Shown: piece after piece, positions 1,284 to 62,299 of the stretch
How positions within the stretch are numbered: the first letter of the stretch is position 1
Layout: each line of letters opens with the position of its first letter
Origin: SAR86 cluster bacterium
GTDB lineage: Bacteria; Pseudomonadota; Gammaproteobacteria; Pseudomonadales; Pseudohongiellaceae
DNA: 64,000 nt
Direction: 5' to 3'
Assembly: GCA_002401885.1 (NCBI GenBank)
Contig: NVUL01000046.1
Location: 1-64,000, forward strand
Program-made: the position numbers and the translations under genes
Notes under the pieces: generated by a model
The model's database searches: none
Told to the model about the DNA's origin: nothing
What the model saw: only the letters and a program-made list of their open reading frames with translations

Positions 1284-2564
1284 TCAGAGTGCTCTTAATT
1301 TGCCACCGGTAAGAAATAGAATCAATCCGACGGCACCTGCAGATGCTGCTATCCAATAGGGCAGGCTGTACAGATTAGCATTCGCGGCGAATGCTAATCC
1401 CAAGACAGCGGGGCCGGCGGCGGTCCCCCAAGAAGACATGAGATTTGCCACCGAAAAAATCCTAGCATACTCACGAATGCCGAAAGCCTCTGCGATCAAG
1501 AGAGGCTGCAGCATCAGCAGATTACCCACGGAGGCACCGAACAGCGCGAGACCTAGGCAGAGGGTCAACACATTTACACCTGTGGCGAGCAAGGTGAGAG
1601 AAGCCGCTTGCAGAATCATTATGCCGATGGCGAACAGGCGAATCGACATTCTATCGATCAACCATCCACCGATCAGGCGGCCGACGATGCTGGAAAAAGG
1701 CAGTATCGCAACCGCCATGGCAGTCTGTGCCTCGCTTAACAATTCGCTCGCCAAACCGTATTGGTGAGCGATGCCTCCAACCTGCGCCATCATTAGAAAT
1801 ATATAAGCGATGCTAATGCCCCAGAAGAAACGCGTGCCTCGCGCCTGCTTAAAGGTAATACCATCTAACGCCAAATCTCTGGGAGCAACAACCACTTCAC
1901 TCCCTGCTACACCCTGTTCTGTGCCGACTGTTTCCAAGCTAGTTGGCGGTTCTACACCATCCGGCCTCAAGCCCATCGACTCGGGGCTCGCCCGCAGCCA
2001 AATCCAAGTTATAGGTATTACGCCTACTAGATAGAGCAATCCCATCAGCGGGGCGGCAAATTCGAAGCCCATGGACTTAACAAGTAACACGCACAGCGGT
2101 GTCAATACGACGCCACCGAGAGACAAACCAGTAGACGCGATCGACAGAGCCATAGCTCTTTTTCTATGGAACCAGCGAGTTACTAGTGTGGTAGCTGGAA
2201 TCAGTGAGGAGGCTGAGAAGCCGACACCGAAAAACATAAAGGCCAGATACAACTGCCAGATCTCTTGCACGAATGCCAGCGAACTCAGTGCGAAACAAGA
2301 AATTATTGCCCCAGCACTGATGCAAATTCTCGGGTCATAGTCCTGCACCCATTTCGCAACCCACAAACCGGTCACCCCACCTGAAAGGAAGAACAGCGAT
2401 ACTGCGAACGAGGCTGTCTGCACATCGAAGTTGGGATTGGCAGCCAGTGCAGTGAGATAGATGGCATGGTTATAGAAACTCAAGCCACTCGTAAACGTCA
2501 GCTGAGCCAAAATGGCGAAGACAATCTTCCATCCATAAAATAAGGGAGAATTACTATCAGTCAT
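1284..2564 (-). CDS. MFS transporter (OFA/monocarboxylate-like)
   Basis: About 12 hydrophobic segments; starts MTDSNSPLFYGWKIVFAILAQLTFTSG; RWFHRKRAMALSIASTGLSLGG motif. Start at 2564 preferred over the upstream M at 2663. Confidence 0.85.
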   Translation of the reverse strand: MTDSNSPLFYGWKIVFAILAQLTFTSGLSFYNHAIYLTALAANPNFDVQTASFAVSLFFLSGGVTGLWVAKWVQDYDPRICISAGAIISCFALSSLAFVQEIWQLYLAFMFFGVGFSASSLIPATTLVTRWFHRKRAMALSIASTGLSLGGVVLTPLCVLLVKSMGFEFAAPLMGLLYLVGVIPITWIWLRASPESMGLRPDGVEPPTSLETVGTEQGVAGSEVVVAPRDLALDGITFKQARGTRFFWGISIAYIFLMMAQVGGIAHQYGLASELLSEAQTAMAVAILPFSSIVGRLIGGWLIDRMSIRLFAIGIMILQAASLTLLATGVNVLTLCLGLALFGASVGNLLMLQPLLIAEAFGIREYARIFSVANLMSSWGTAAGPAVLGLAFAANANLYSLPYWIAASAGAVGLILFLTGGKLRAL

Positions 2565-2795
2565 AACTGCATATTTAACATCGTCGAAGAAAAAATAACT
2601 TGCTGCAGCTTGAATCAGCAATAAGCAACAGCAATCTATTCGGGGGCTCGATGCACTGCACATGGAGCGATGGTATAGAGAAATTTCTAGTCCGTTTTGA
2701 CCAGCTCTCTTTTTGAGCGTTCTTTTTACTCATTTTTACCGGAAATTCTTGATGCTTGTCCTAGCAAATCATGCTCGCCGGCGATTGTGTTTCGG

Positions 2796-4535
2796 TCACT
2801 GATTGTAGAACGTGAAGTAGCCAGTAAACATTTCTTCCCAGCTCTCTAAGCCGAAGGTGACCTCTTTGCTAGGATCCGGATTTGATGGGTTTGATAATGA
2901 GTTGTCGAAGGCGCCAATCACACGCAGAGTACTGCCAGCGGCTACGGGCTCTGCCTCATCTAATAAGTAGTCGGGCTGCCATCCGTAGTTGTAGGCGGGG
3001 ACACTAAATAGATCTCGTATCTGCCCCTGCGGATTTTCCACAACAAACTTCATGCGCTTGCCACGGAAATTCATTCTGGCGCGCACTCCTGTGACAACGA
3101 TATCTTGCTCAACCTTCTGCTCTGCCCGAAGCTCGAAATCATTATCATTTGGCGGCAGTAGGAAGCGACTTGCGACTGCCTGCGTTAGTATTTCTTTCAG
3201 GTCCGGCTCATCACTAAAATACAAACCGAATTGCGTTTCATCAACCGTAGACTGTCCGTTAGTCACATAGTGAAACTGCATCGACAGCCTGTGCCCTTGC
3301 GGAACTAGCACGCCAGTACCCTCATCGAATTCGATAGCATTGGTCTTTCCTGGAAGATAGCTCCCGACAAAGCGACGCGTAACAGACTCGCTTGTCCGCT
3401 CGGCTCCCCAGAAGTCTTCTTCCGGCGGCGTAACGAAGGTCACCAGGTGGTGCAAAACAGACTCATCGCCCGCAATGTATTGAATAGCGCGCAACCACTT
3501 GTCCTCTTCGAAGGGTAGTTCAGCATCATCATAGACATAGTCCATTACGCCGATCGGCGGTATCTCATTCCGTGGACCAGTCACAACATAGTCCGGTTCG
3601 CCGAAGGCCCACTCAGTACGATCTTGTGCAGCGAACACTTCCAAGGGATCGGCTTCGCTGTCGCCTCGTGGGGCGCGGTTGTTAATCCAATGCACAAGCG
3701 TCTGCAGATCGTCGGGATCAAGATAACGCGCCGATTCGGAGTGACCAATATAAGGATCGACCTGTGTTGGCGGCATGCGTTTATTTAACAGCACTTCCTT
3801 GATCATGGGTGACCAGCCAAGGACCATGATGTAACTGTCTAAAGCAAAGGGCCCTACTCCACCCTGGCGATGGCAGTCGCCACAATTCTCAATAATGATC
3901 GGAGCGATTTCGCTCGCATAGTCTGGCGGCGAGCCACTGTGCTTTTCTTTCAGAGGATAGTCGATAGCGCAGCCCGATCCGGATTGTCGGATCGTGTCGC
4001 TCACACCTTCGCCAGTGATAGAAGTCAGTGTCGACTCGAGTCCTTGCGATGGCTGGCCCTTAAAGAAAAGCGAGAGACGTTGAGGGTTCAGCACCAAAAC
4101 GTCTCCAGCATTTTCAATATTCAGTGTTTCCGATATCAACTGGCCATCGTCCTCGAGTATCGGTAACTCGACACCCAATTCGCTGAGTTCGGGCCGATCT
4201 AAATCTTGAGAGTCGATCAGTAGAAATTCGAAATCATTTCCGGTGTATTCGTCCGCGATGTTCTTATAGCTATCCAGCAGCGCGTCCATCGTAGCGCACT
4301 CAGCGGAGTAAGCCATGAGCACCAGCGCCTTGCGATGCTGATAGCGACTCAATTGATGGAACGTTCCCGCGTTGTCGAGTAGCGCAAAGTCGCCCACGCG
4401 ATCTAGAGCTGCTGGAGCGAGAGTCGAAAAGGCGCTAAGCAGTAGCCCGCTAATAATGTGTAGCGAATATTTCCTGCACTTACTGCCTGACTGAATGACA
4501 ACACTACCCGGTGACTGTTTACGCTTCAATTCCAC
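2796..4535 (-). CDS. Redoxin-like domain + c-type haem (CGDCH) + PHM/DBM-like copper monooxygenase C-terminal domain protein
   Basis: Signal peptide, thioredoxin-like N-terminus, ENCGDCHRQGGVGPFALDSY, MPP, SVLHHLVTF, MQFHYVTNG, ARMNFRGKRMKF, EEMFTGYFTF; same layout as the 6094 and 7702 genes. Confidence 0.75.
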   Translation of the reverse strand: MELKRKQSPGSVVIQSGSKCRKYSLHIISGLLLSAFSTLAPAALDRVGDFALLDNAGTFHQLSRYQHRKALVLMAYSAECATMDALLDSYKNIADEYTGNDFEFLLIDSQDLDRPELSELGVELPILEDDGQLISETLNIENAGDVLVLNPQRLSLFFKGQPSQGLESTLTSITGEGVSDTIRQSGSGCAIDYPLKEKHSGSPPDYASEIAPIIIENCGDCHRQGGVGPFALDSYIMVLGWSPMIKEVLLNKRMPPTQVDPYIGHSESARYLDPDDLQTLVHWINNRAPRGDSEADPLEVFAAQDRTEWAFGEPDYVVTGPRNEIPPIGVMDYVYDDAELPFEEDKWLRAIQYIAGDESVLHHLVTFVTPPEEDFWGAERTSESVTRRFVGSYLPGKTNAIEFDEGTGVLVPQGHRLSMQFHYVTNGQSTVDETQFGLYFSDEPDLKEILTQAVASRFLLPPNDNDFELRAEQKVEQDIVVTGVRARMNFRGKRMKFVVENPQGQIRDLFSVPAYNYGWQPDYLLDEAEPVAAGSTLRVIGAFDNSLSNPSNPDPSKEVTFGLESWEEMFTGYFTFYNQ

Positions 4536-4879
4536 TGCTTGAGTTTCCTAGATTTAAGTGAGGCCTCATGAGATACACTCGAATGAGGTTTTAGGCACCG
4601 TTATCTACACGGCTTATCGTTACTAAAATTGATGCGCGAATCCTCTCATACTCGGGTCAATGCTGACAATTCCTCAGCTTGTTACATTTTGTTTAAAACA
4701 AGCCCTCTAGCCTGCAGATTCTCGGCGGCTGCAAACTAGACTCCAAGTACAATGCCGTTTATCCTAGCGTCCCTGTTTGTTTGGATTCCGTAGTTTAGCC
4801 TTAATTACTGTATTCACTCGGACAGATTGACAATAAAGTAAGACAGAACAATCGAACCTGATCTTTGGAGAGAACACCG

Positions 4880-5818
4880 ATGCGACAGTATCAAAAAACC
4901 TTTGCACTATTAGCCTTTGCCCTAACGGCAGTTTTTAGCCTCACGGCACAAGCCCAATCTGCAGACAATGGCCGCTTCCTGAGCCTTGCACCACCTTCTG
5001 GCCTGCCAATCATCCCCGTAATGGAAGGATGGATTGCCAATCCAGACGGTACAGTGAGCTTTTCCTTTGGCTTCATCAATCGAAACGACGTGCCGGTTGA
5101 TATCCCCGTAGGTACGGCGAACTACATCGAGCCAGCCAAATACAGCGGCATGCAGCCCACACATTTCCCGGCAGGACGCTCAACTGGATTGTTCACAGTT
5201 ACGGTTCCCGCTGATGAAGCTAACGATGACATCTGGTGGTATATCAAGACCGGCAGCGAAGAAGCCTTGAAAGTCCCTGGCCGATACGGCATAGGTGCTT
5301 ACGAGCTAGACTTCATCCTGCCTCGTCCGCAGGGTGCCATGCAACCACTCGCCGGTTTCGGTGAAGACGGCCAAAGATCTGCTGGGCTTTTCGCGCAGGT
5401 GGGTGAATACCAAGGCACGGTTAGAGTAGGCGAGCCGGTGGTTTTTACGGCAAATGTCGAAGACATCTCGGTACGAGACACTACTGACCCCCGCTTCCTA
5501 GAGCCGATTTCAATAGGCGTCCAGTTCAGAAAGTATCAAGGCCCGGGCATGGTGGAGTTCACACATCATGAGAGCACCGCTATCCCCGAGAATCCTTACG
5601 AAGAAGATGACCGCAGATTCCGCTTCTTCCGTGAGATTACGCCTGGTCAGGTTAAGGTAGAGGGCGGCAGTGGTCTAGCCCATGTAATTGCCACTTTCTC
5701 TGAGCCGGGTGAATACATAATTCATACCAAGGTAGACAACTTCGGCGGCCCAGACAGCTCGAACGGCGACCAGTGCTGCTGGACGAATATTGTTCAAAAG
5801 GTAACTGTAAGCCCATAG
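4880..5818 (+). CDS. Secreted protein of unknown function, beta-rich, C-terminal QCCWTN motif
   Basis: Signal peptide MRQYQKTFALLAFALTAVFSLTAQAQ; clean 312-codon ORF; RBS-like ggagag upstream of ATG 4880. No family confidently recognised. Confidence 0.7.
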   Translation: MRQYQKTFALLAFALTAVFSLTAQAQSADNGRFLSLAPPSGLPIIPVMEGWIANPDGTVSFSFGFINRNDVPVDIPVGTANYIEPAKYSGMQPTHFPAGRSTGLFTVTVPADEANDDIWWYIKTGSEEALKVPGRYGIGAYELDFILPRPQGAMQPLAGFGEDGQRSAGLFAQVGEYQGTVRVGEPVVFTANVEDISVRDTTDPRFLEPISIGVQFRKYQGPGMVEFTHHESTAIPENPYEEDDRRFRFFREITPGQVKVEGGSGLAHVIATFSEPGEYIIHTKVDNFGGPDSSNGDQCCWTNIVQKVTVSP

Positions 5819-5835
5819 GTTGTTGTTATTAGTTT

Positions 5836-5862
5836 TCTGGCCGACCTGCACGGTCGGCCAGA
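5836..5862. other. Intergenic perfect inverted repeat (11-bp arms, 5-nt loop), no strong T-tract
   Basis: tctggccgacc-tgcac-ggtcggccaga just 3' of the 4880 gene. Confidence 0.6.
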
Positions 5863-6093
5863 GAGCAAACAAGGGCATTTCTTCGAGATCCCCAGCTGGG
5901 CAGGCGCTAGCCGCTGCATGCAGCGATAAAAATCCTCAAAAAGTGTTTCAATTTGTTGCAATCATGCCTCGTTAATGGCCGTATTTAATGGACATTTGGG
6001 GAGCAGCCAATTAAAATTTTTGGCAGGAATAAACACAAGAATACCCATAGAACTTTAATTTAGATCAATAACTCTCAATTTAAGGAGAAAAGC

Positions 6094-7449
6094 ATGAAAA
6101 CAGTACGCGTATTGACTGCTTCGGTAAGCGGCGTATTCCTCGCATTTGGCCTACAGGCTAGTGCACAGGACGACGCAGTTACCTACAACAGTCACGTTGC
6201 TCAGATTATCAACGAGAATTGCGTTGTATGTCACACGGAAGGCGGCATCGGCCCTATGCAACTCTCTAGCTATGATCAGGTCCGTCCTTGGGCACCTCTG
6301 ATCCAGCTTCGTGTTGCTAATCGCGAAATGCCTCCTTATGCATACGATCACGGTATCGGCATCCAGGACCTTCAAGGTGACTGGCGCTTAGAGCAGGCAG
6401 AAATCGACACTATCGTCGCTTGGGTTAACCAAGGCTCACCAATGGGTGATGCGGACATCGTTGCACCAGTTGCAGACGTTAAAGACCCAAGCGAGTGGAA
6501 TTTCGCTGCCAACTTCGGTCAGCCTAATCTAATCATTTCTTCTGTACCCATTGATATTCCTGCAAACGGTAACGACCTTTGGCACAAGCACTATGTTGAC
6601 ACTGGCGTCACTCAGGATCGTTGCATCAAAGCGGTTCAGGTTAAGCCACGCGGCGACGCAGCTGCGGTTGTTCACCACGCTAACTCTTCCGTTGACGCAC
6701 AAGATGAAAACGGCGAGTGGGAGCAGTATGGTCAGCTAACTGAATACGCTATGGGTAAGTGGGGCGAGCTAGTACCTGACGGTGTTTGCCGTACGCTGCC
6801 AGCGAACTCACGCGTTTCTTGGGATATTCACATGTTCCCAGGCGGTGTCGGCGCAACTGCTCCGGGCACAATGATCAAAGATAACGTTGTTGAAATCGGC
6901 CTTTGGTTTCACGATGACGATTACATGACTGCATCAGCAAAGACTCCTTACAAGCAGGATCTGAAACTGTATCAACTGCGTGAAGGCTATGAGAGCGGCG
7001 AACTAATCATACCTCCTAACGGTTACACGATGACTCAGGGTTTTCATTCTTTCGATCACCCGGTTCGCATCGATAGCTTCCAGCCACATGGCCACCTGCG
7101 CATGAATGCTGCCTCTCTGGAAGTGTTCTACCCAGAAACTGGCCGCACTGAGCAAATCAGCCAGATCTCTAACTGGAGTGCCACATGGCACCACAGCCAT
7201 CTGTATGAAGAAGATGTTGCTCCTTTGCTTCCTGCAGGTGCTGTATTGGTAATCAAGCAGTGGTACGACAACACAGCTAACAACCCAAATAACCCTGATC
7301 CTGATCAGTGGGTTGTAGGCGGAAGCCGTACTGGCGACGAGATGTCTCACGCTTGGATCGCGGTTACTCACCTCGATGACGAAGGCTATGAGAATATCGT
7401 TGCAGATCGCAGAGAAAAAGAAGAGCGTTCACTAGCCGGAAATGACTAG
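6094..7449 (+). CDS. c-type haem + copper type II (PHM/DBM-like) monooxygenase-like secreted protein, copy 1
   Basis: Signal peptide; ENCVVCHTEGGIGP (haem, 6220-6234); VVHHAN (6673-6678); WDIHMFPGG; QPHGHLRM (7087-7095); GDEMSHAW (7336-7344). RBS taaggag. Confidence 0.8.
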   Translation: MKTVRVLTASVSGVFLAFGLQASAQDDAVTYNSHVAQIINENCVVCHTEGGIGPMQLSSYDQVRPWAPLIQLRVANREMPPYAYDHGIGIQDLQGDWRLEQAEIDTIVAWVNQGSPMGDADIVAPVADVKDPSEWNFAANFGQPNLIISSVPIDIPANGNDLWHKHYVDTGVTQDRCIKAVQVKPRGDAAAVVHHANSSVDAQDENGEWEQYGQLTEYAMGKWGELVPDGVCRTLPANSRVSWDIHMFPGGVGATAPGTMIKDNVVEIGLWFHDDDYMTASAKTPYKQDLKLYQLREGYESGELIIPPNGYTMTQGFHSFDHPVRIDSFQPHGHLRMNAASLEVFYPETGRTEQISQISNWSATWHHSHLYEEDVAPLLPAGAVLVIKQWYDNTANNPNNPDPDQWVVGGSRTGDEMSHAWIAVTHLDDEGYENIVADRREKEERSLAGND

Positions 7450-7493
7450 TACTTAGCTCATTTGATTTGGGCTAACTTCTTCTAAGAAGTCAG

Positions 7494-7527
7494 AAAGGCC
7501 GGTTAATCTCGATTAACCGGCCTTTTT
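7494..7527 (+). terminator. Rho-independent terminator
   Basis: aaggccggttaatctcgattaaccggcctttttt: GC-rich stem followed by T-run, 3' of the 6094 gene. Confidence 0.85.
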
Positions 7528-7701
7528 TATTGCCAAAATTTGGCCAACATATGCGCTGTTACTGCTTCTTCCAGACGCTAAAAAAGGGTAAACTCAGGCC
7601 TGATTGACTGAAATTGTAGGATCTATCTATCCAATAACTGGAATACTCGGCCCAATCCCATTCGAGATTTCCTTAAAGAGCAAGATCAATAGGAGAGATT
7701 T

Positions 7702-9048
7702 ATGAGTATTTCGAAAGGCTGGTTAGGCCTCGCAGCGTTTGCCGCGGCAGGATTTCAGGTTACGGCTCTGGCTCAGTCAGCTGCCGATCATGACGTCACC
7801 TACAACGGTGAAGTCGGCAAGATCATCAATGAGAACTGCGTAGTCTGCCACCGCGAAGGCGGAATCGGCCCTATGCAGCTCACAAGCTACGATCAGGTTC
7901 GCCCTTGGGCACCGTTGATCCAGATGCGAGTCGCGAACCGTGAAATGCCTCCCTATGCCTATGACCATGGCATCGGCATTCAGGATCTCGAAGGCGACTG
8001 GCGCTTAGAACAAGAAGAGATCGATACCATCGTTGCTTGGGTAAATCAGGGCTCGCCAATGGGCGATGCGGATGTTGTCGTTGTTATGCCTGAAATGAAT
8101 GACCCTAGCGAATGGAACTTTGTGTCTCAATTCGGTCAGCCGGACAGAATCATTCCTTCCATATCTATCGATATTCCTGCCAGTGGCAACGATCTCTGGA
8201 GTAATCACTACGTAGAGAGTGGCATTACTACAGACCGCTGCATCAAGGCGGTACAGGTTAAGCCAAGAGGCGATGCCAAGGCTGTAGTTCACCACGCAAA
8301 CTCAACCGTTGAGATGCTGCAGCCAGACGGCACTATGGAACGGCAGAGCATGCTCACCGAATATGCTATGGGCAAATGGGGCGAGATCGTTCCTGAAGGC
8401 GTATGCCGCACAATCCCAGCAGGCGCTATGGTGCGCTGGAGCATCCACATGTTCCCTGGTGGCGTTGGCGCAACTGCTCCCGGCACTATGATTAAGGACA
8501 ATGTGGTTGAGATCGGCCTTTGGTTACACCCGGAAGGTTACGAGAAAGAAGCTCAATACAAGCAAGACCTGAGCCTCTATCAGATCAGCCCACAGGCAGA
8601 CATTGTTATTCCACCGAATGGTTATTCCATGACGCAGGGATTTCATTCCTTCGATCACCCGGTTCGTCTTGACAGCTTCCAGCCTCATGGCCACTTGCGC
8701 ATGAATGCTGCATCGCTGGAAATCTTCTATCCGGAAACTGGTCGCACAGAACAGATCAGCCAGATCTCAAAGTGGAGCGCTACATGGCACCACAGCCACA
8801 TCTACAATGAAGACGTAGCTCCCTTAATACCTACCGGTGCGGTATTGGTATTGAAGCAGTGGTACGACAACACAGCCGACAACCCCAACAACCCCGATCC
8901 GGATATGTGGGTAATGGGCGGCAGCCGTACTGGCGACGAGATGACTCACGCCTGGTTAGCCGTAACTCACTTAGATGACGAAGGCTTCGAGCAGATGGTT
9001 GCCGAGCGCAAAGAGAAAGAAGAACGTTCACTAGCCGGTAACGACTAG
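7702..9048 (+). CDS. c-type haem + copper type II (PHM/DBM-like) monooxygenase-like secreted protein, copy 2
   Basis: Highly similar along its whole length to the 6094 product; ENCVVCHREGGIGP, VVHHAN, WSIHMFPGG, QPHGHLRM, GDEMTHAW all conserved. Confidence 0.8.
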   Translation: MSISKGWLGLAAFAAAGFQVTALAQSAADHDVTYNGEVGKIINENCVVCHREGGIGPMQLTSYDQVRPWAPLIQMRVANREMPPYAYDHGIGIQDLEGDWRLEQEEIDTIVAWVNQGSPMGDADVVVVMPEMNDPSEWNFVSQFGQPDRIIPSISIDIPASGNDLWSNHYVESGITTDRCIKAVQVKPRGDAKAVVHHANSTVEMLQPDGTMERQSMLTEYAMGKWGEIVPEGVCRTIPAGAMVRWSIHMFPGGVGATAPGTMIKDNVVEIGLWLHPEGYEKEAQYKQDLSLYQISPQADIVIPPNGYSMTQGFHSFDHPVRLDSFQPHGHLRMNAASLEIFYPETGRTEQISQISKWSATWHHSHIYNEDVAPLIPTGAVLVLKQWYDNTADNPNNPDPDMWVMGGSRTGDEMTHAWLAVTHLDDEGFEQMVAERKEKEERSLAGND

Positions 9049-9143: not shown

Positions 9144-9641
9144 CTACCTATCCAAGAAGTGAAAGTCCGCAGGACCACCGCGGCGCACCACAATAACCGC
9201 ATCCTCTCCGCCCTCTGGCACGTCCCAGGAGTGATTTAGCTTGCCAGGTATGACGATATAGCTGCCAGCACTCACCGAATGACTGTCCTCACCTAGAACG
9301 ATCGTCACACTGCCCTGCACCACCACCACGAACTCGTCATGCGTGTGCCAATGCATATCGAAATGCGAGCCCGCCGGAAACTTCGCATAGTAGGTTATGC
9401 CACCCGTGACTGGGTCGGTTCCCTGCCGCGCGGTTTGAACTCCTACGGGAGCGCCATTACCGCCGCCGGGTGGTCCCCACTCGATGTCTGCGAGCGGGAT
9501 GGCTAGAGGCTCATACTTACTAGTCGGAGATTCTTCTGCTTGAAGTATGGAATTGGCAATGAGTGTAGAGCTTAAAGCGAGGGCCAAATAAATTTTCTTA
9601 ATCACGGTGTTAGTCTCCAATCCTTGTGGGGAGTAGAACAT
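9144..9641 (-). CDS. Secreted cupin-domain protein
   Basis: Signal peptide; HWHTHDEFVVVVQGSVTIVLGEDSHSVSAGSYIVIPGKLNHSW cupin motifs. Confidence 0.85.
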   Translation of the reverse strand: MFYSPQGLETNTVIKKIYLALALSSTLIANSILQAEESPTSKYEPLAIPLADIEWGPPGGGNGAPVGVQTARQGTDPVTGGITYYAKFPAGSHFDMHWHTHDEFVVVVQGSVTIVLGEDSHSVSAGSYIVIPGKLNHSWDVPEGGEDAVIVVRRGGPADFHFLDR

Positions 9642-9693: not shown

Positions 9694-12300
9694 TCAAGCC
9701 TGTGAGCTATGCCCATTTTCTCGGCCAGAATAGAGTTGAACCTTTAATGATTCCAATTGAGAATAATAGTGTCTATATGATTCCATGCCCTCTATCTCCA
9801 CCGCTTGTTGAAAGTAAGACTGCCCAAGCTGAGAGTTCCCAGATTTCATTGCCAATTCTGCCAGTGCAATACCTGCTTCCCACTCGCTAAATTTAGCTCC
9901 AGTTCTCTTGGCGATAGACAGGGCTTCTTCCAGATCCTGCTCTGCTAGAGCATACTCATCATTTGCACTATGCAATTTTGCTCTACCGATTAAGCCGCTT
10001 GGTAGATATAACCACTCATTGGCCGCCTTAAAAAGTTCTACCTGTTTATTTAGATAATCTGACGCTTTTTTGAGGTCATCCAGTTTGAGATAGATTAATC
10101 CTAGTACAAGTAGGTCTGTCGCATACAATGATGTTGTATCCACTGCCACCTGCCAAGCATTCGTTTCCCTCCATTGTAACGTTAATAGAGCGCGTTCCAG
10201 AGCCTTCTCGACTTCTCCAGCATCCAATAAATACTTGCAGTAGAACGAACTAATAGTCGGGCATACTACTTCACAATCAGGCTCAAGCCTGTTTAGAGTA
10301 TTCTCGGAGTTCTCAAAATATCTGGATGCTCCAGTCCAGTCTCCCTCGAGAAAGCTTATATATGCCCCAATGCTAGTTGAGGCTGCCCCGAGTACTTCGT
10401 TGTCTGCCAACTCCACACTCTCCTGCCCTTTTTCCCATTCCGCTCGAGCATCATGCAGACGCCCAGCTGCGATCAGCATCGAAATGAGCGGACCGGCGGT
10501 AGCCGCCGCTTCGAACCAACGTTTATTAGCTCGAAACCATTGAATGCTTAGAATAGATGGCTCGATGGCTGCGTCTATTTGGCCCAAGTAAATTAAGTTT
10601 GATGCTGCACTGGAGAGTAAATAGAAACTAGCCGACTCTGAAAGCTGAGCTACGGGCTCGGTCCATGGGCTGCGAAAGAAGGCACGTATACAACTTTGAT
10701 CGGCATGATGAGAACCTTCGGTAAAAATTGAAAACTGTTTCCGTTTAATCCTTTCAAAGTAGAGCTGGAAGCTTTCTTCAACGAGGCCTGCCCTCACCCC
10801 GTGAATTACCGCTCGAAACAAAGGCTCCATCTGCACCATGGATACTGGATTCGCTACCGCGCTACGCTGCAAAAAATTGAATACAATCTTATTCCCCTGT
10901 CTCCAAGCATCAGGCTTCTCTCTCCGTAAGTGCTCGTTCAAGAAATCGCGCACTAGAGGATGGCAGTCAATCACATTGCTTTCGCCGGTTTTGGATGTGG
11001 ATATTAAGTTAGCGTCTTCCAATTTCTTAATCGCATAGCTCCACTCAGAGTGTGACAAGTCAACTAACTCTTCGGTAAGTCCAGATACGGACTCCGACGT
11101 CACTAGAGCTTTCACATCCACCAGAGTGATGCCCCGGCCAAATAGCCCAAGCAGATTCAACAAAGAAGTTTCCAGTGATGATTCAAACCAACACAAATAG
11201 GCCTGCACTATGCTACTAGCGTGTGTATCGAATGATTGAATATCAACGAGAGAATTCAAGTCTCTGTAGTTTGCAACATTTGCGTCGTGAACGACCGAAA
11301 GGTAGCCCGCTAGCAGTGACAAGCATAACGGATGTCCGGAATAGACCTCTACGGCGGACTGCATGTCACTCTTATCGCCACAGATACCCATAGCAGATAG
11401 CAACTGCACTCCATCTGCATTGCTCAACCGCTCTAGGTGCAGGGATTTCGTACGACCATCGCTAAAAGACACGAATTCTGAGATAGATAGCCGCGAAGTA
11501 ATTATGCACAAGCCATTGTTATTCGCTGCAAGTTCTCGCAGCAGGAGTGATACGGCAGGGTTTTCGATTTCACCTTGTTTGGGGCCCGGCGGATATTGCA
11601 GCGGTTCGAGACCATCCAGTATAAGCAGTGTTCTAGACTCTCGTATTAAGTCTGCGAGTCTATTCGCCTTCGCCCAAGGCGTTCCCTTGTCTGGACACTT
11701 ATCTCCAAACCATTCTAATGCTTGCTCTATAAATAAGTCCCCCGAAGAAATTACATCTGACCCTGTTCCTTGCCAATAGAAGGACCAGGCGTAAACCCTG
11801 TTCGCACCGGCGTAGCCCAACTTATCCATTCGCGATAGCCAGCTATTGACCAGACTGCTCTTTCCCACTCCACCGAATGCGATAATTTCCAAACAGTTGG
11901 TTATTTGTTCATCCCAGACTCGATCAATAGCATCTAGTTCTGTACTTCGACCGAAAAGATTCAGTCCTGTACATGGCAAGGACGAAAGAGAAATTTTATC
12001 TATGCGCGTAACAGATGCAGAGGGCTCAAGCTTTTGCTGCAATCTTTCTCCAAACTCACTTAACTCCAGCCCGAAACAGTAAGGCTCCATCTCAAACACT
12101 GCAGCCACTTCAAGAATTTGGCTATGCGGAATGGTATTTCCCGCGCTTGTTTCAGAGCCGTGGACCCATTTACTGATTGCCTGACGCGAGATACCAAGAT
12201 GCTTGGCTAGGGTAGCGTTGTTGCTTATAGAAGGATTGATACACGAGGTGTACAGCTGAGTGAGCTTCTTAGCGAGATGAGGATGCTTGCCTGCGCTCAT
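9694..12300 (-). CDS. STAND-type ATPase: N-terminal HTH, NTPase, TPR-like C-terminus
   Basis: LAKHLGISRQAISKWVHGSE (HTH); FGGVGKSSLVNSWL (Walker A); RTLLILDGLEPL (Walker B); C-terminal half of TPR-like helical repeats. Confidence 0.8.
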   Translation of the reverse strand: MSAGKHPHLAKKLTQLYTSCINPSISNNATLAKHLGISRQAISKWVHGSETSAGNTIPHSQILEVAAVFEMEPYCFGLELSEFGERLQQKLEPSASVTRIDKISLSSLPCTGLNLFGRSTELDAIDRVWDEQITNCLEIIAFGGVGKSSLVNSWLSRMDKLGYAGANRVYAWSFYWQGTGSDVISSGDLFIEQALEWFGDKCPDKGTPWAKANRLADLIRESRTLLILDGLEPLQYPPGPKQGEIENPAVSLLLRELAANNNGLCIITSRLSISEFVSFSDGRTKSLHLERLSNADGVQLLSAMGICGDKSDMQSAVEVYSGHPLCLSLLAGYLSVVHDANVANYRDLNSLVDIQSFDTHASSIVQAYLCWFESSLETSLLNLLGLFGRGITLVDVKALVTSESVSGLTEELVDLSHSEWSYAIKKLEDANLISTSKTGESNVIDCHPLVRDFLNEHLRREKPDAWRQGNKIVFNFLQRSAVANPVSMVQMEPLFRAVIHGVRAGLVEESFQLYFERIKRKQFSIFTEGSHHADQSCIRAFFRSPWTEPVAQLSESASFYLLSSAASNLIYLGQIDAAIEPSILSIQWFRANKRWFEAAATAGPLISMLIAAGRLHDARAEWEKGQESVELADNEVLGAASTSIGAYISFLEGDWTGASRYFENSENTLNRLEPDCEVVCPTISSFYCKYLLDAGEVEKALERALLTLQWRETNAWQVAVDTTSLYATDLLVLGLIYLKLDDLKKASDYLNKQVELFKAANEWLYLPSGLIGRAKLHSANDEYALAEQDLEEALSIAKRTGAKFSEWEAGIALAELAMKSGNSQLGQSYFQQAVEIEGMESYRHYYSQLESLKVQLYSGRENGHSSQA

Positions 12301-18350: not shown

Positions 18351-19481
18351 TTAGCGCACAGAGTACTTAGTAAACGCACCACCTGCCTGCGATAGTGAGT
18401 TAGGTCCCTCTGCCGCATAGACATTGCCATCTGCATCAACAGCAATGCCTTCTCCTGCAGTGCCTTGATAGACCCGATTGTCACGCTCAAAAGGCTGGAT
18501 GAAGCCGACAATTCGATCTTCATTCAGAGGGCCAATGCGCACGCCGTTTCTCCAGCCTACGTGACCAGTCGGGCTCGACTCGGAATCGATTGCGTAGACC
18601 ATATCATCATCTGTGATAAACAGTCCGCTGATGCGTCCGTACATATAGCGCGACTCTAAATAGTTGCCCTCTTGGTCGAATATTTCGAGGCGATGATTAC
18701 CGCGGTCGGCAACCCAGAGACGACCCTGTGAATCGAACTCCATCGCGTGCGGCGTGCGGAATTCACCGTGTCTTACGCCGATGCTACCCCATTCTTTAAT
18801 GCGCGTGCCGTCGGGAGAGAACTTAATGATTCTAGCCGTACTGCCCTCTGCGCGGCCCTCCTCCATAGCCTGATTGCTGGTCATACCCTGACCATTGTGC
18901 CCATCGGAGACATAAATGCTGCCATCCGGTCCTACGATCACATCGTTCGGCTGATTGAATTGATTGGGGCCACTACCTGCCGAACCCGCCGTGCCAAGAC
19001 TCATCAGCAATTCACCGTCGGCGCTGAACTGGTGCACCTGTTGACCCTTGGTGCCATCTGAATTTGTCGCGAAGTCAGTTACCCAGACACTACCGTCAGC
19101 AGCAGCGTGAATTCCGTGGGGAGTCATCATGACACCGCCACCAAAATTCGCCAGCACCGCGCCCGTATTGCGATCGAATTTAAATATTGGATCTACTGGA
19201 TTCGTGTCACAGTTGATGGGAGTACCGCCACCGAATGTGCCTGCGCCGCAGCGTTCATAGGCCCAGATATGTCCGTCATTCGGATCGATGTCGATGCCAG
19301 CCGTTGAACCCCAGTTTCTTCCAGCGGGTAGGTCACCCCAATTCTGGGTGACGACAGGGGCGGGATTGGGCAGGCCATCGCCCGAGATAGGATTGCCGGC
19401 ACTTACGCAGCCGGTTAGCACCGCCGATACGCAGGCAAATAGCGTAAATTTGGATAGGGGTGACAGAGACAATGAAGTCAT
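18351..19481 (-). CDS. NHL-repeat six-bladed beta-propeller lipoprotein, peptidylglycine alpha-amidating lyase (PAL)-like
   Basis: Lipobox-type signal (VLTGCVSAG); TPHGIHAAADGSVWVTD, TPHAMEFDSQGRLWVADRGNHRLEIFDQEG blades. Start at 19481 (MTSLSLSPL). Confidence 0.75.
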   Translation of the reverse strand: MTSLSLSPLSKFTLFACVSAVLTGCVSAGNPISGDGLPNPAPVVTQNWGDLPAGRNWGSTAGIDIDPNDGHIWAYERCGAGTFGGGTPINCDTNPVDPIFKFDRNTGAVLANFGGGVMMTPHGIHAAADGSVWVTDFATNSDGTKGQQVHQFSADGELLMSLGTAGSAGSGPNQFNQPNDVIVGPDGSIYVSDGHNGQGMTSNQAMEEGRAEGSTARIIKFSPDGTRIKEWGSIGVRHGEFRTPHAMEFDSQGRLWVADRGNHRLEIFDQEGNYLESRYMYGRISGLFITDDDMVYAIDSESSPTGHVGWRNGVRIGPLNEDRIVGFIQPFERDNRVYQGTAGEGIAVDADGNVYAAEGPNSLSQAGGAFTKYSVR

Positions 19482-19784
19482 GGATGCTCCTTGGGTATTT
19501 TGTTGTTTTGATAAGAAGTACTGCGTCAGAGAATAAAAGCTATCCCGTTGCAAGTCCACTCGTTGCGCCGTCAGCACGGACAAAAACAGACTAATTGGAA
19601 GAGCGCAAGGTAGCGCCTGAGCTTTCTATCGGCGTTAGTTAGTAAGTACTAACAAATCTGAGTTTCAAGCCTGCCTTTTGCTCTTATTTAGCGCATTGCC
19701 TCTAGCGGCGAGTGCGGCAACTAGCAAGCCCCATAGATCCAGCGTCTACAACAATGGACGTTTGACCATCTCACTAGTTGCAGC

Positions 19785-20849
19785 TTACGGCCGAACACGA
19801 ACATATTTCTCGAAGCGCTGACGACCCACTTGCCCCGCATAGATACTGCCCTCGGCATCAGTCGCCAAGAACTCTATGCCGCTGCCGTTTTGTACCTCAA
19901 AGTCGGGAATGAAATCTGTAATCCAGCTAGTCTTGGCATCACCGATGCGAATGCCACGCTGCCAGCCCGGATTCCACTGATCGCCCGACATACCATCGGC
20001 GACGTATATCTTGTCGTTATCATCGATCCAAATGCCGCTCGGTCTGCCGAATTGAGTCCATATAGAAAGAAGCTCGCCCTCTTGATCGAATATCTGTATG
20101 CGATTGTTGCCACGATCGGCAACGAAGAGCCTGCCCTGGGAATCCATCTTCAAGTCATGTGGGTCATTGAATCTGCCCACCTCGCGACTGAGAGAGTCGA
20201 CACCGCCGCCCAGTTGCAACAGCAGTTTGCCATCGGCAGAGAACTTCAGGACACGATTGTTGCCACCACGATGCCCATCGGCTATCCAAACATCGCCGTT
20301 GGCTGCGACCTGCACAGCCGAAGGTCCATTGAAGTGAGTGGCATCATCACCGGCAACGCCTGCTTCACCCAAACGCATCAAAACCTCGCCATCTTGGTTC
20401 AATTTTATTACCTGATGTCCCATCCCTAGAGCGAAGCCATCTGCGCCTCTGTCATCACCCAGCGGTGCGCCTTCGGTCACCCAGAGGTTACCTTCACTAT
20501 CGAGATCGAATCCATGAGGCCATGCAAATAATCCGGCTCCTAAACTCTTTACCACTTTACCTTGGGCGTCTAGTTTGTGAATCGGCGGAAGATCGGAACC
20601 GGCACATTGATTTGTACTACAGCGCTCGACGATCCACATATGCTCTCCATCAGGATCAGGATGGACACCGGTGACTACTCCCATCTCTCGCCCACCTGAC
20701 AGTTCTCCCCAGTGATAGTTAACCTGATAAGGGTTTTCGGAGACGGCTTGTGCCAATGAATGAACGGGGACTAGCAGCGCTAGAATCGAGAGGACTAAGG
20801 CCATCTTTAACTCTGACATTTTACGATCGGGGAAACTTGAGAAGCGCAT
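19785..20849 (-). CDS. NHL-repeat beta-propeller secreted protein, PAL-like (paralogue of the 18351 gene)
   Basis: WPHGFDLDSEGNLWVTEG, ADGHRGGNNRVLKFSADG, DPHDLKMDSQGRLFVADRGNNRIQIFDQEG; overall similarity to neighbour. Confidence 0.75.
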   Translation of the reverse strand: MRFSSFPDRKMSELKMALVLSILALLVPVHSLAQAVSENPYQVNYHWGELSGGREMGVVTGVHPDPDGEHMWIVERCSTNQCAGSDLPPIHKLDAQGKVVKSLGAGLFAWPHGFDLDSEGNLWVTEGAPLGDDRGADGFALGMGHQVIKLNQDGEVLMRLGEAGVAGDDATHFNGPSAVQVAANGDVWIADGHRGGNNRVLKFSADGKLLLQLGGGVDSLSREVGRFNDPHDLKMDSQGRLFVADRGNNRIQIFDQEGELLSIWTQFGRPSGIWIDDNDKIYVADGMSGDQWNPGWQRGIRIGDAKTSWITDFIPDFEVQNGSGIEFLATDAEGSIYAGQVGRQRFEKYVRVRP

Positions 20850-21021: not shown

Positions 21022-24000
21022 CTACGGGGAAGTCGGACCGATGTAGATCTCTTGCCAGTTGATGACGCGATCGTGTCCGCGGTAGGAACCAAACTCGATG
21101 ATGCCGCGAGGGTTATCGGTGTAAACACCATCTGCGGCTTCATCATACAAATCGCCAGGCTCTACCGCACCGCCACGCCAGTCGTATTCGAGAAAATACA
21201 GAGAACTTGGTGAATCATCATCGTTAGGATCCAAATCTAGCTCGACCAGAACCCGGCCCACTGACTCAGGGTCTGGAGCTGAAGTGAAGAATGGCCGGTC
21301 AGAATCGTTGGTTAAGTCTGCATCCGAATCGGCTTCCGGATCGCTCTGCCCCTCGAACACAGTAACGGTAACATCGATGCCCGGAGCGCCTTCGATCTCC
21401 GTTACTCCATCCGCAAACGGGGCAAGTGGAGGGAGGTAGTCGGCGCCGGCATCCTCATAGGTACCAGGCACGTACGCTAATTCCTCTGCACCATTGGTCT
21501 GTACAATGGCGGTACAACTATCGGCGGCGTTAACTACGAAGTCATTGCCATCGTAGTATTCTATGCGTATGCCAATATTTAAGTCCTCAGATTCGGAACC
21601 GAAGGCATTCTCCACAATCAGTCTGCCGTAGCGGAATTCGTGCTCAGCAATTTCGGCAAACTGCCACGGACCTACTAATGGATCTACATCCGGCGCACCA
21701 TCATCCAATTCGACGTCGAAGACATCTAGCAAGACATCGTTGGATGCGACAAGATCGTCTGTGTCACCATCGTTGATGTTATTGTCAGTAGGGTTGATGG
21801 AAATTTTTACATTTTCTAGGGGCGCATCTTCAACGCCGCTGGCCTGGCGAGTTATTCGCAAATCTCCGGACAACAATATTTGCCCGGCACTCCAATCGTC
21901 CATAGTGCTAACCGTCAACGATCCAAATTCATCCGGAAAGGTGCTTCGCTCAAATCGCATATCCGCAACTAAATCAATATCTGCTCCAACATCGACATCG
22001 ATAATCCCGCGTATATCAAGTTCAACGAAACTGTTGAGCTTTGCAAAACCACCAAAGTAGTTCTGCAATGTAGTTGTCTGAAAATTCTTCGCCTCGAGCG
22101 TGATGTTGATAGTAAAGTCTTCACCCATATAGGTAAACGGGGAGGCCATGGCACAGACCATTTCCTGATTTGAGCGAGGCCCAAAGCTTGAGCTAATCAG
22201 CTCGAAGTTATTGGGGTAGATGCGCCCCACATTGCGTGCGCCACCGACCACACCCTCAACGGCTGTGTAGGGAACTGTCTCGAAGTAGTTGATTAGATTC
22301 CTTCCTATATCGTCATCGACTAGTTCGGCAGCAAGATCGAATATGCCGACCTCATCAATGGCTATGAATTGAGGCCCGCTCACACCATTGCTGAACGACT
22401 GAAAAACATCGCTGGAGCCGTCTACGATGACCATAGTGCCCACCACTCCAGCCGGCACGCCGGGGTTGGCCGCGCCGCCATTTGTTGGATCAGTTGTAAG
22501 CACACTGACTATAACGGTGTTGTTGTCTACAGCTTCGTCGCCGAAATTCGTTGCCACTAAATTATCCGATAGATCGGCTTCGAAATCCGCTATGCCGTCG
22601 TTGCCTGGCGAGCCATCTACTAGCTCCACATCATCACCCTGTTCCCAGATTACTGCTGAGACTGTTGCATTGAAGCCCACACCCGCGCGTGCAAAAGCCG
22701 AGCCATCCGCATCAGCTGCGAGAGACAGGTCGACAGAATTACCTCTGTCATCACTGAAATCGATATCGAAGGCAAAGGGCCTAACAACGAACGTGCTGCT
22801 CGCTCCATTAATTGTGTCGCCGGAAGCGGTGGCGATAACGTCTTCAAAGGGTAGATCATATTCAGCATGCAGTGAAATCTGCCCTGCATCGGGATAGATG
22901 AAATTGATTGGCGCACCGATATTGGCCTCACCATCGATTACCAGACCCAGATCAGAGAACTCCAATGTTAGATCGGTGGCTGTCACCTGTTGCTCTGGAT
23001 TCAATGTATTTCCATTGAATACCGGCACCGATCGTTCGACTAAACCTGAATCGAATATGGACATAGCGGAGACATCACAGCCCATGGGATCTATACAGAG
23101 CCCGGCGAATGTCACCGTGACCACATCGCCATCGTCAACAATTGATTCACAGGCTGCAGCCGCGTTCTCGCCCGGGATTGGCACACTACGCACGATCTGT
23201 AGTGTCACATTGCCCGACGCGGGGGCCGTCAGCGCAGGCTTGCCTGCGATCTGAAATGGCAACGTGGTACTCAGGGCGCCGGTATCTTGATCGTAAAACA
23301 ACAATCCCGCTTCGGCGAAATCGGAGTTGGGATCATGGCTGTCATCGAAGGGCAGCGCAGTCTGTTTGATTTCGGTAAATGTGCCATCGGTAAGATCGAT
23401 ATTGACCGTCGCTCCATCACCGGCTGGGTCTGTGTAGTTGAATGCTAGCTGCACAGAAGATTCTCCCCCTGGAAATATATAAGTTCCCATGCCATCTGTA
23501 TCAGATACAAGAGCACCGATATCAGTCAGGGTTCCTCCACCAGAGATAATTCTCGCCCAGGTGCCGGAGTTATTAAAGGTAGAAAGATTTAGAACTGTGG
23601 CTGGGTCAACATCAACCGGATTGTGCTCAAAGCTATGGGCCGTGATGGTAACCCCGGACGCAACACAGGCGAGCCCGGTTGACGGGATATCAATGTGGTA
23701 GTGATTCATTCCACCGGTGGCACAGGCGTTGGTGCTGGTCGTGATCTCGAAATTGTCGACCGTGAAGGTGCCCAACACATAACCGGAAACCAACACCCAG
23801 CGCACATACAGATTCGCGTCAGTTCCATCGATGATAATCAGGTTTGGGTCGTCGGGGATGTCGTCTGCCGCAACGTTCGATATAAATGCACTTATATCGA
23901 TCGTTTCATTAAAATCGGAGCCACTCGTTCCATCCAACATGTCATAGGTTTGAACCGTAACGTAGTCCACATCGTCGTTGGAAATTTGCAATTCGATGAC

Positions 24001-27000
24001 ATCGCCGGAATTACTGGCAGATTGGAAGCCGTAATCGAACTTAATCAGTACGGGTTCGGCATAAGTAAACAGTCCGAGGCCTGCTGCGCGCGTCATGCTC
24101 GGGTCGATAGCGCCACCATCCGTCGTTAAGTTAGACGTGAATGTCAGCTTGCCCCCCGTCATCTGTATATTACCAGTGCCCATGCCCAGCCCTGAACCCG
24201 GGCCTGTGGCCATGCCATTCAATGCATCGACCTCAGCCCAGTCGAACGACCAGCCTGCACTGCCGTCGTTGTTATTCAAAGCTGCCACTGCAAAATTATC
24301 TTGGTAGTCAACATCGGTACTGACTAGATTAAATACAAACGGGCTGTCGTTATCTTCATCGACGACGAAGCCATTGGTGACGCTGACGCTCACCGAATCG
24401 ATCACAGGCGTGACCTCTGAGACATCCAGAGTGAGAGTAACTTCACCGTTATCGGCTAAGGCAAAGGTATACAGCGCCTGGCCGTTATCTGTGCCACCAC
24501 CGTAGCTATTATCGAGGTTGGCAGGTGTACCCGTATCCACACTCCAGATGCCATTCTCCGGCATCGAGTCTGTAGTGATTAGAATGCTGCCTTCGTAAAT
24601 CGTATCTGTAACGTGGGTGTTAACTCCCAGGACTTTATGTTTACGAATCCGGATCGTGGCCGGTGCACAGGCATTGCCCGGTGTGATTTGTGAAATATCA
24701 AAGTGACCCAAATGCGCCGGCTCGATGAGATGCAACGCATTGAGCTTAAGATCGCCTTCCGCAGTATCGAATACACCGATAGGTATGCCGCCATTAAATA
24801 AATTTGTTGCCGTTGTTGCGGTGGGAGTAGGTCTGCTACCTGCATCGATAGTTATCTCGGCCACGTCATCTCGACCCACGACTACGTTGTTATCTCCCAG
24901 CACCGCACCCTGCACCTCCGATGACACGACGATGGTATCGAGCGCCAGAGTTGAGTCTGCAGGATCGACGCGCAGATACAACGCGTCAACCTGCGCATCG
25001 ACCGCGTCGAATACGTTGTTATCCTCGGCATCTAGATAGATCGAGAATGTGCCGGCAACGGGGTCGTACTGAACCAGGTCCGAATCACTCCATAAGACGA
25101 TACCCCCATCGCTCGCAGGGCCTGCCGTGGAGAATATTATCTTGCGATCAGCGAGCGCTAAACCCTCATCAAGCATATAGACAGCATCGATATTGAGATC
25201 GATGGCATCGCCGCCGTCGTCGGTAATCAGAGCGCCATCGAAGAGTAGCGTGGCTGTGTTTAACAACTTGTCGTATAAGACAATATCGTCTTTGTCGAAC
25301 GCCTGACCATTTGTGCCTATGGTGTTGCCATCTTCATTCGATGAGAGCAGTACCTGACCGTTGGGCAATAGATGAATAGCATTAGGATCGCTCACGTTGT
25401 AGCTCGGGGTCGTGGCACTATCTATAAACAGCGAAGCCGCATCCAGAGCAGGATCGTAGAGCACAATATCGTCATCGCTGAAATCCGACAATAATCCACC
25501 ACCCGAACCTAGCGAGGTCGTGTTCAGCGCGGCCGCTGCCGAAACAGAGAGCAGGAATTTATCGGTCACCGCAGCCGGAACCGGCTCTATATTGTCTGTT
25601 GTTCCTGAGGTGTTATTACCGGGCACGATATCGAAGTTGTAGGTGCCTGAAGATACTTGAGCGGTGTTGGTAACCGGGGTCGGGCTTGTGCCAAGCACAT
25701 CGCCCACTAGGGTAATTACTGAACTCTCGCCATTAAGCAGCGGCGTCATCAATCCCACTGAATTATCGAATGTACAAACCAACTGATCAGGCACTCCAAC
25801 ATTGACGTTACAAGTCCAGAAGTCACCGCTGGCACTATCGAAATTTAGATCAGACGGCTCATTATCTATAATCGTCATTGCTGGCTGAGTAAGGCCGGCC
25901 ACAATATCATCCGGGCCGTTGTTGGTTACCGTGATGGTGTAAAGAATCGTATCAGAGCTTCCCTCTTCTAAAATCGTAGTTACTTCTTTAACAACGGAAA
26001 GATCGGTTTCGATGCCTTGCACATTAGTCGTAATGCTATCAACGTTGTTGTTACCACCGGTCTTGTCATCAATATCGTTAATATCCAGCGTGCCGCCTTG
26101 CAGGTCGTTCACGTTATCAAATTCCGGCGGCTCACAATTGCTGGTAGGAGTAGGTAGGATGCCGGTGCTAGCGCCCAGGCAAGTACCATCGGAATGCTGG
26201 ACTCTGACGATCAGCTTCGCATCGTTGTTCAAACTTGGAAAAAATGCAGGCGGAGAAGCTATGGTCACTGTGGCACTCACGGTAGGAAGGCTCGCATCAC
26301 CCAAGCCGCCTATGCCGAGGTTTGCCGTGATGTCGTAGGTACAGGTGAAGGCAGTAGCCGAATTTCCCGAGTCGCTGCAGACCCAACCGGTTCCAGTTAT
26401 TTCACCGCCGCCATCAGCAAATGTCATCCCGGAGGGCAACTCGCCCACCAACTCAATGATGCCTGTGGCTTCGCCAAAGGTTACTGCTCCGTTGCCGTTG
26501 TTCTTGACCTCGATGTTATACACGCCGTTGCTGCCTACTTTATAGGAGGCGTCTGCTTCAGTAATGATTACCTCGATGTCTGCAATCGGTGCGTTGCTAA
26601 CACTAATTATTTCCGCAACCAACAGCACCAGATCCTGGTCAGCTGCGTAGCGTGTAGTAATCTCCTCGGCCAAGTCTGTTGGATCGGCAAATTCATAGAG
26701 AATGTCACCTATCTCATCGCCGTCAATAAAATGAGTATCTATATCCACGCCATAGCTCAAACCGTATTCGGTTAGAGCCGCTCCGGGAGGAGTGAATGGG
26801 AATACGGCGGGATTCGGAAAATCTATTTCAACACCATTGGATGGATTGCCATTTACTCCAGATGAGTCGTCGAAAATATACTTGTATTCAGTCGGCTCTC
26901 CGGTACCACCGGTGAATACATCTGTAAGTGCGTAGACTGGACGCGTAATGGTGCCATTAAATTCTTCGTCCGCTGGATTGAAATCCGTAGTAAGGCCATT

Positions 27001-32457: not shown

Positions 32458-32969
32458 ACAAATCATAGATTACTGGATATTCCGACTGCTGGGAGCTGCA
32501 ATTCCTGAAACGCTGTGAAAATCGACTTTTTAGTTAATAAAACCTAATATTTTTAGTAACTTAGAACAATATCGACCTAGCGGTGTAATTATTAACCTCA
32601 GACGCTAAAAGGCGTCTAAAACTTTCTAAAAATGTCTGGTGACTTTAACCACAAAAGCATTTCTTACCCTGAAGAACATACGTGCAAACCACTGACTTTT
32701 CGACAAAAATTAGGGGTCGAATGGGGGCAGATGTGGCTTGTGTCACGGATTTTAAAGTCTGACTTCGAAGCCGCATTCCTAGCTCGTAGGGAATGGTCCT
32801 GCCCTCATAGCTATAGAGTGAATTCAGCCTAGTTTTTGTGCAGCTACAGGAAGCTTGCAACTCAAGCCCGAAAAAGCCTTTGCCGCTGTTTTTATTACAA
32901 TTTTTCATTCTATAATAGTTACTCGAGAATAGTTCGACCAAATGCCTCTTACTCAGTATTTGAAACTCC

Positions 32970-61462: not shown

Positions 61463-61480
61463 TTCATTCGTCTCCAATCT

Positions 61481-62299
61481 TTATTTCAGACTCATGAGGT
61501 AGGACACCACATCGTCTATCTGTTGTTCGTCTAACACAGAGTTGTATCCCGGCATAAGAGAATGTCCTTCCACTTTCTCATAACTGATCAAGTCGGATTT
61601 TTCAAACGAATATATTTCACCTGCCATATCGCGCATCTGCACGGTGAAGGCATCTTCGTTGATGCGCAACCCTTCGTAAGTTCCATACTCTGAGACGATA
61701 CGCACAGTCAGAAAGGCTTTGAGCGAACCGCGGAAGCGATCTACTAAACGCGGCTGATCTGCTGCGGGATTGGTTACTGAGCGGCGAAGATACGCGGCAT
61801 TGCGTCGTTGACCCACATTGCTGAGCTCCGGACCGATACCGTATCCCTCGCCATTTAGTATGTGGCAGCTAGAGCAATTGCCGATGCTTCTATACACCTG
61901 CGCTCCTGCTATCGCGTCACCGGGCATTTCTTCCGGGGGCAGTTCACCCAAACTGCGAACATAGGCCGCCACATCAGGCCCATCCTGCCCGCGCAATTGT
62001 CGCGAGCCTGGCATACCAGTTCCCGGAATGCCGCCTACGATCACGGATACGAGGGCAGCGTCATCCGGAGCGTGCACAAGATTTGGCCGCGTAAGACTCG
62101 GGCCTTCGGAGCCTTCTCCCAGCATGCCATGGCAGCGGGCACAAAGAGTTTGAAAGAGTTGCTGCCCATTTTCCAAATTCTGCGCAGAAACCAGCGGGGT
62201 TGAAAGTAACAAAACCCCCGACACAATGAGCGCAGAGTATCGACTAAGGTATTTCTTGAGGAGCACTGAGAACCTCCCAATATTTTTCTTGATAGACAA
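61481..62299 (-). CDS. Dihaem c-type cytochrome
   Basis: CARCH and CSSCH motifs; signal peptide; directly downstream-adjacent on the minus strand to the PQQ dehydrogenase start. Confidence 0.9.
   Translation of the reverse strand: MSIKKNIGRFSVLLKKYLSRYSALIVSGVLLLSTPLVSAQNLENGQQLFQTLCARCHGMLGEGSEGPSLTRPNLVHAPDDAALVSVIVGGIPGTGMPGSRQLRGQDGPDVAAYVRSLGELPPEEMPGDAIAGAQVYRSIGNCSSCHILNGEGYGIGPELSNVGQRRNAAYLRRSVTNPAADQPRLVDRFRGSLKAFLTVRIVSEYGTYEGLRINEDAFTVQMRDMAGEIYSFEKSDLISYEKVEGHSLMPGYNSVLDEQQIDDVVSYLMSLK

Follow-up and report, generated by a model that had tools for sequence, protein, structure and literature searches.

In this study, we analysed a 64,000-nucleotide stretch of DNA from a SAR86 cluster bacterium (contig NVUL01000046.1, positions 1-64,000; hereafter the window, whose positions are used as ORF coordinates throughout) and describe a cluster of four open reading frames (ORFs): A (2796-4535, minus strand), B (4865-5818, plus strand), C (6094-7449, plus strand) and D (7702-9048, plus strand). 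ORFs C and D each encode an N-terminal haem c module fused to a domain related to the copper monooxygenases PHM and DBM (DBH), with the full set of copper ligands, and on the strength of profile and structural comparisons we regard their homology to PHM/DBM as settled. Beyond homology, C and D are in our view probably binuclear-copper hydroxylases located in the periplasm and fused to haem c; they would be reduced via their own haem and would feed alcohol dehydrogenases or PAL-like lyases. ORFs A (579 amino acids), C (451 amino acids) and D (448 amino acids) are uninterrupted, and export signals are visible by inspection at the N-termini of all four proteins.

Fold and family assignment of ORFs C and D

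A template-free AlphaFold2 model of C (mean predicted local distance difference test score, pLDDT, 82.5) was compared with the PDB by Foldseek, and matches 1 to 31 are all PHM or DBH, the best being PHM (E 8.7e-12, probability 1.0). A second line of evidence comes from the genome to which the window belongs, in which 24 places matched and resolved to 21 paralogous proteins (24-75% identity to C) that serve as our alignment set. The profile of these 21 paralogues finds human DBH (4zel) by sequence alone (E 6.6e-6), and its alignment places the HH pair on chain positions 223/224, the third His on 294, the HxH pair on 373/375 and the Met on 448. With the offset of 39 that converts PDB chain positions to DBH numbering (578-residue chain, 617-residue protein), the six ligands of C fall on DBH H262, H263, H333, H412, H414 and M487, which we take to be the known copper ligands of that enzyme. 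The first-pass annotation had read a PHM/DBM-like domain from the letters alone, and this reading is largely borne out, as the model matches PHM/DBH first and the profile pairs all six ligands with those of DBH; of the outcomes that it had named as speaking against it, the profile match to an unrelated fold did not occur. In sequence and model, C and D are thus predicted to have the double jelly-roll fold, the CuH set and the CuM set by which PHM/DBM proteins are recognised.

C shares with human DBH the PHM-type double jelly-roll core and the six aligned ligands, but it is bacterial and exported, is 13% identical to DBH in the structural comparison, and carries its haem c where DBH has its own N-terminal domain. 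From PHM (1phm/1sdw), its best structural match, with which it has the same ligand pattern, C differs by the fused N-terminal haem c and by its low identity (10-12%); PAL-like genes lie near some bacterial copies, but PAL is not fused to them.

Haem and copper ligands

As the first-pass annotation had stated, ORFs A, C and D contain a single CxxCH each, at 3870-3884 (minus strand), 6220-6234 (plus strand) and 7837-7851 (plus strand), respectively. In C this haem attachment site corresponds to residues 43-47 and the candidate axial ligand is Met79 (6328-6330, plus strand). Both are invariant in a larger ligand-conservation set (81/81 sequences), so that the CxxCH and the distal ligand candidate expected of a c-type cytochrome domain are present throughout, and weak Cytochrome_CBB3 matches are seen in 18 of the 21 paralogues. 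A short CxxCH cytochrome module of this type is also present in the alpha subunit of hydrazine synthase (5c2v; E 3.7e-4 with the paralogue profile), an unrelated enzyme whose likeness is limited to the haem module.

For the copper sites, the motifs VVHHAN, W-x2-HMF, QPHGHLRM and GDEM had been proposed as the ligands of the copies at 6094 and 7702; all were found in both, and the complete ligand set read from them was correct, each of the six residues aligning with a DBH ligand. In C, the predicted CuH ligands are H194-H195 (6673-6678, plus strand; aligned to DBH H262/H263) and H246 (6829-6831, plus strand; aligned to H333), all invariant in 81/81 sequences, and the CuM ligands are H332-x-H334 (7087-7095, plus strand; aligned to H412/H414) and M417 (7342-7344, plus strand; aligned to M487), the latter present in 80/81 with one gap. 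Every one of the 56 sequences below 540 amino acids has an intact HxH pair, as do five paralogues of a larger, redoxin-fused class; one of the 56 is gapped at the Met ligand, and otherwise the full set is kept throughout this smaller class. Across the alignment of 21 paralogues, the only Cys, His or Met residues kept in at least 90% of sequences are C43, C46, H47, M79, H194, H195, H246, H332, H334 and M417. The PHM-like part of C holds 15 His, of which exactly the five proposed ligands are conserved, and its non-haem Cys are not conserved across the family. Because the only conserved Cys, His and Met are the haem and copper ligands, the copper-ligand pattern goes beyond chance. D, the second complete protein of this kind, is 75% identical to C, and in our tree of PHM-like sequences, made by a quick method and with some long branches, C and D form separate lineages, each kept between species.

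These data bear directly on the possibility that C and D have only a jelly-roll fold in common with PHM, their His and Met residues forming the pattern by coincidence or for structural reasons. Such a reading could draw on the single-sequence PDB and Pfam searches of C, which missed the PHM part that the profile and the model alone brought out, and on the occurrence of the PHM double jelly-roll in PNGase F as well (PMC8812541). Against it stand the DBH profile match with six of six ligands aligned, the top 31 structural matches, all of which are PHM/DBH and none PNGase F, and the fact that the ligands are the only conserved His and Met. We therefore reject it as highly improbable, strongly disfavoured as it is by profile, structure matches and ligand conservation alike.

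A proposed self-sufficient hydroxylase

Based on these results, C and D would most likely each bind two uncoupled coppers, CuH through H194, H195 and H246 and CuM through H332, H334 and M417, and, with O2, would hydroxylate a small organic substrate at a C-H bond. Electrons would enter through the haem c module instead of from ascorbate; ascorbate synthesis is not known for most bacteria, which is why a built-in reductant is attractive. We compared the surroundings of the cluster in 21 loci (the window and 20 related), and in seven of them the cluster continues with a GMC oxidoreductase (8.5e-22) and a Gluconate_2-dh3 subunit (3.3e-19). In our proposal, this adjacent dehydrogenase/subunit-3 pair would oxidise the resulting alcohol in many relatives, while next to other copies a nearby PAL-like lyase would take the product. 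A broader formulation, in which these proteins would make up a self-sufficient, ascorbate-independent family of binuclear-copper hydroxylases, organised as a modular periplasmic system with a beta-sandwich partner (in one class), a companion devoid of CuM and downstream dehydrogenases or lyases, we advance only as a conjecture, held at somewhat less than even confidence.

Several observations weigh against a hydroxylase function or against a close correspondence with PHM/DBM. Neither Cu2_monooxygen (PF01082) nor Cu2_monoox_C (PF03712) of Pfam matches C or D; on the supporting side, PF03712 does reach 9 of the 21 paralogues (best 2.5e-6). In the model of C, the segment of Met417 is poorly defined (block 411-420, mean pLDDT 58), the global template modelling (TM) scores against PHM/DBH lie in a moderate range (0.37-0.46 for the query and 0.35-0.61 for the target), and the root-mean-square deviation is about 6-7 Å, so that the relative arrangement of the domains may differ. 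Finally, the GMC/Gluconate_2-dh3 pair is missing beside the cluster in the window and in the three relatives closest to it.

ORF A, a relative that lacks the CuM histidines

That the three haem proteins share one layout, as first proposed, holds for C and D but fails for A, which has an extra redoxin-like domain and in which ARMN replaces PHxH. A is thus an exported protein with a redoxin-like domain, a haem c and a PHM-like domain; it keeps the haem residues, the CuH ligands and the Met, and its CuM His-x-His is replaced by RMN. Without the His-x-His that completes CuM alongside the Met, A is a relative of PHM/DBM and does not count as a member whose active site is complete. Of the 81 sequences, 19 carry RMN or KMN, namely A, its 17 syntenic orthologues from other species, and a single paralogue in the same genome (locus L022), and all 18 syntenic A-type copies that were examined carry the replacement. 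The 19 sequences form one clade (support 100) nested within the intact redoxin class in the same quick tree, with its long branches, and on this topology the CuM site is lost once, with a single origin in the A-type clade. Since CuM was lost once while the haem, the CuH ligands and the Met are kept genus-wide, the sequences suggest that A-type proteins retain a function other than hydroxylation; most likely A would be a non-hydroxylating companion acting in electron transfer, copper delivery or regulation.

The redoxin-like domain of A gives a weak AhpC-TSA match (residues 46-143) with a score under the cut-off, and 7 of the 21 paralogues match AhpC-TSA, the best at 4e-11. In the paralogue alignment, this region has neither a CxxC nor any conserved Cys; judged by its residues the domain is degenerate, and we rejected a peroxiredoxin function for A for want of a conserved Cys. 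A counterpart with matching domain order comes from another family of the phylum (genome G313, locus L054), where a 715-amino-acid redoxin-haem-PHM protein has the HH pair, the third His and the PHxH; it is distinguished from A by a longer, EF-hand-like C-terminal extension and by its intact CuM site, and the G313 genome gives only three matches in all.

Partner protein B and the conserved cluster

ORF B encodes an exported protein of 317 amino acids with Ig-like/beta-sandwich domains (AlphaFold2 pLDDT 74), and the position of its homologues marks it as a dedicated partner of the PHM-like proteins. The genome of the window has 13 B-family members (12 besides B), each near a PHM-like gene of the 450-amino-acid class. 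In G025, a complete 6.6-Mb genome of the same genus for which gene counts were taken from merged matches, all 15 B homologues have a PHM-like gene no more than 500 bp away, where chance would give 0.21. B has no Pfam family, and the family alignment has no conserved Cys or His and no conserved metal ligands. Foldseek returned only low-TM matches for the B model, mostly to multi-domain beta-sandwich proteins, from which we draw no function. In our proposal, B would serve as a beta-sandwich partner without a catalytic role, docking or stabilising the enzyme or presenting the substrate.

The arrangement as a whole, with A on one strand and B on the opposite strand together with one or several C/D-type genes, is repeated in 17 of the 20 related loci, usually with an MFS transporter beyond A. 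In the window this transporter (1284-2663, minus strand) is of monocarboxylate/oxalate type (Pfam MFS_1 1.7e-32; NCBIfam L-lactate MFS 4e-32, which is below that model's cut-off), and it is present in 15/21 loci, as is the exported cupin protein on the other side of the cluster (9144-9641, minus strand; Pfam Cupin_2 1.6e-10). In 12/21 loci there is also a secreted protein of about 390 amino acids (L073:490-1731 and 11 others) that matches no Pfam family and bears, in the majority of copies, a Met/His-rich loop such as MDHGGHGGHGGMAMEMDM. This loop is plausibly a copper ligand, and the protein is possibly a new copper-binding protein; it is not beside the cluster in the window or in the three relatives closest to it. 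Among the other paralogue units, two PHM-like/partner units adjoin CopC-domain proteins (7e-6 to 5.5e-12), at L015:13155-13775, L015:14803-15357 and L020:7201-7728.

The presence of CopC-domain and Met/His-rich proteins nearby is one reason to weigh a different function for the family, in which the PHM fold and the coppers are kept but the proteins handle copper or transfer electrons, the haem passing electrons out, or reduce nitrite, nitric oxide or peroxide. The A-type members, which hold CuH and haem without the CuM His pair, argue that the scaffold can be useful without an O2 site, and the fusion of a redoxin-like domain in one class points the same way. Yet the CuM HxH and Met are kept in 56/56 members of the smaller class (with one Met gap) despite deep divergence, as would be expected of an O2-activating site, and the GMC/Gluconate_2-dh3 and PAL-like neighbours point to the handling of a hydroxylated product. 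We consider this alternative rather unlikely for C and D, for which we retain the hydroxylase reading.

PAL-like proteins near PHM-like genes

Two other loci of the genome to which the window belongs each encode a PAL-like protein of the NHL-propeller type with a nearly complete set of PAL residues, which raises the question of a bacterial analogue of the PAM pathway. In L013 (4359-5549, minus strand) the gene is on the same strand as, and directly upstream of, a PHM-like gene, and in L019 (12664-13854, plus strand) it is near one, with a residue set that looks like that of L013. Aligned to PAL 3fvz (E 5.3e-10), the L013 protein has the equivalents of R533, H585, Y654 and R706; those of H690, at a one-residue offset, and of H786, which lies outside the local alignment and was read by eye, are probably present as well. 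Together we take these six positions to be the Zn-His triad and the catalytic Arg and Tyr residues of PAL. In G025, three of the four close PAL-like relatives have a PHM-like gene at a distance of 5 kb or less (expectation 0.20; P 0.0006), and in a looser NHL group the figure is 4/18 (P 0.01).

Such neighbours would suit a two-step reaction of PHM-like and PAL-like proteins, either an oxidative N-dealkylation or the C-terminal amidation of glycine-extended peptides or N-acylglycines, and the two residue sets, the gene order in L013 and the proximity in G025 all speak for it. As an explanation of the family it is nevertheless improbable, as a PAL-like neighbour accompanies only a minority of PHM-like copies, NHL propellers are numerous in these genomes, and the equivalence of H690 and H786 is a reading of alignments. 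The window itself has two adjoining genes for exported NHL-propeller proteins (18351-19583 and 19785-20849, both minus strand), which match PAL 3fvz at 6.6e-20 and 1.5e-18; in both the third Zn His is absent (E or S/G, as read from the alignment) and a His replaces the catalytic Tyr. We rejected them as direct PAL partners, as they are about 10 kb from the cluster and miss the third Zn His. For some PHM-like copies a PAM-like two-step reaction is possible, the evidence coming from loci other than the window.

Distribution and novelty

The expansion of this family is a trait of the genus. All 36 other genomes of the genus that we searched have 11-29 matches each, and G025 has 33 PHM-like genes after merging of matches. 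In other families of the same order 1/22 genomes has a match, a weak one, and in a sample of 299 genomes of the phylum the only convincing relatives outside the genus are in G313, which has redoxin-haem-PHM proteins whose PHxH is intact, and in G152, which has a haem-PHM protein of 421 amino acids and a PF03712 match above the cut-off (8.5e-15); all other matches are short and limited to the haem region. A search of a plasmid collection gave a single weak match. By these matches, the haem-PHM architecture is wider than the genus and its expansion special to it.

In a 2020 review, PHM and DBM are entered only under eukaryotes (Table 3; PMC7435645), and PHM is described as widespread in eukaryotes in a 2022 paper (PMC8812541). 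We found no paper on a bacterial haem-PHM protein in the open literature, a scope that excludes most subscription papers and all preprints. The system had been put forward as undescribed, and this stands for the literature searched but not for databases: the homology is not new to these, as Pfam models catch part of the bacterial sequences. PF03712 exceeds its curated cut-off at two places in the genome of the window and matches none of 14 well-known control genomes. What appears to be undescribed is the fusion, the expansion, partner B and the clade without CuM.

How the electron crosses the gap between CuH and CuM is still debated. If our proposal is true, a family with a built-in haem reductant and as many as about 33 members in a single genome would offer expression-friendly models for this mechanism, and the natural series without CuM, represented by ORF A, a tool to separate the roles of the two coppers. 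The family might in addition bring to light a way of oxidising C-H bonds that has gone unrecognised in this genus. It resembles the animal copper enzymes that make noradrenaline and amidated hormones, and it may bear on the origin of enzymes that process neurotransmitters and hormones.

Other features

Beside the cluster, an 868-amino-acid protein (9694-12300, minus strand) combines helix-turn-helix, possible NTPase and TPR segments and is also near the cluster in several relatives; PADLOC gave only a generic TPR match for it. Gene pairs for a pyrroloquinoline quinone (PQQ) dehydrogenase-like protein and a cytochrome c occur in the window (59834-62299, minus strand) and at L014:6901-9380 (plus strand), the latter directly upstream of a PHM-like/partner/NHL unit. 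A family of exported proteins of about 330 amino acids recurs in five copies (L013:5671-6642, for which Pfam gave no match, L015:6114-6974, L016:15506-16495, L021:1619-2620 and window 45066-46103). Finally, the window encodes a giant secreted protein of 3814 amino acids (21022-32466, minus strand) in which internal segments are repeated.

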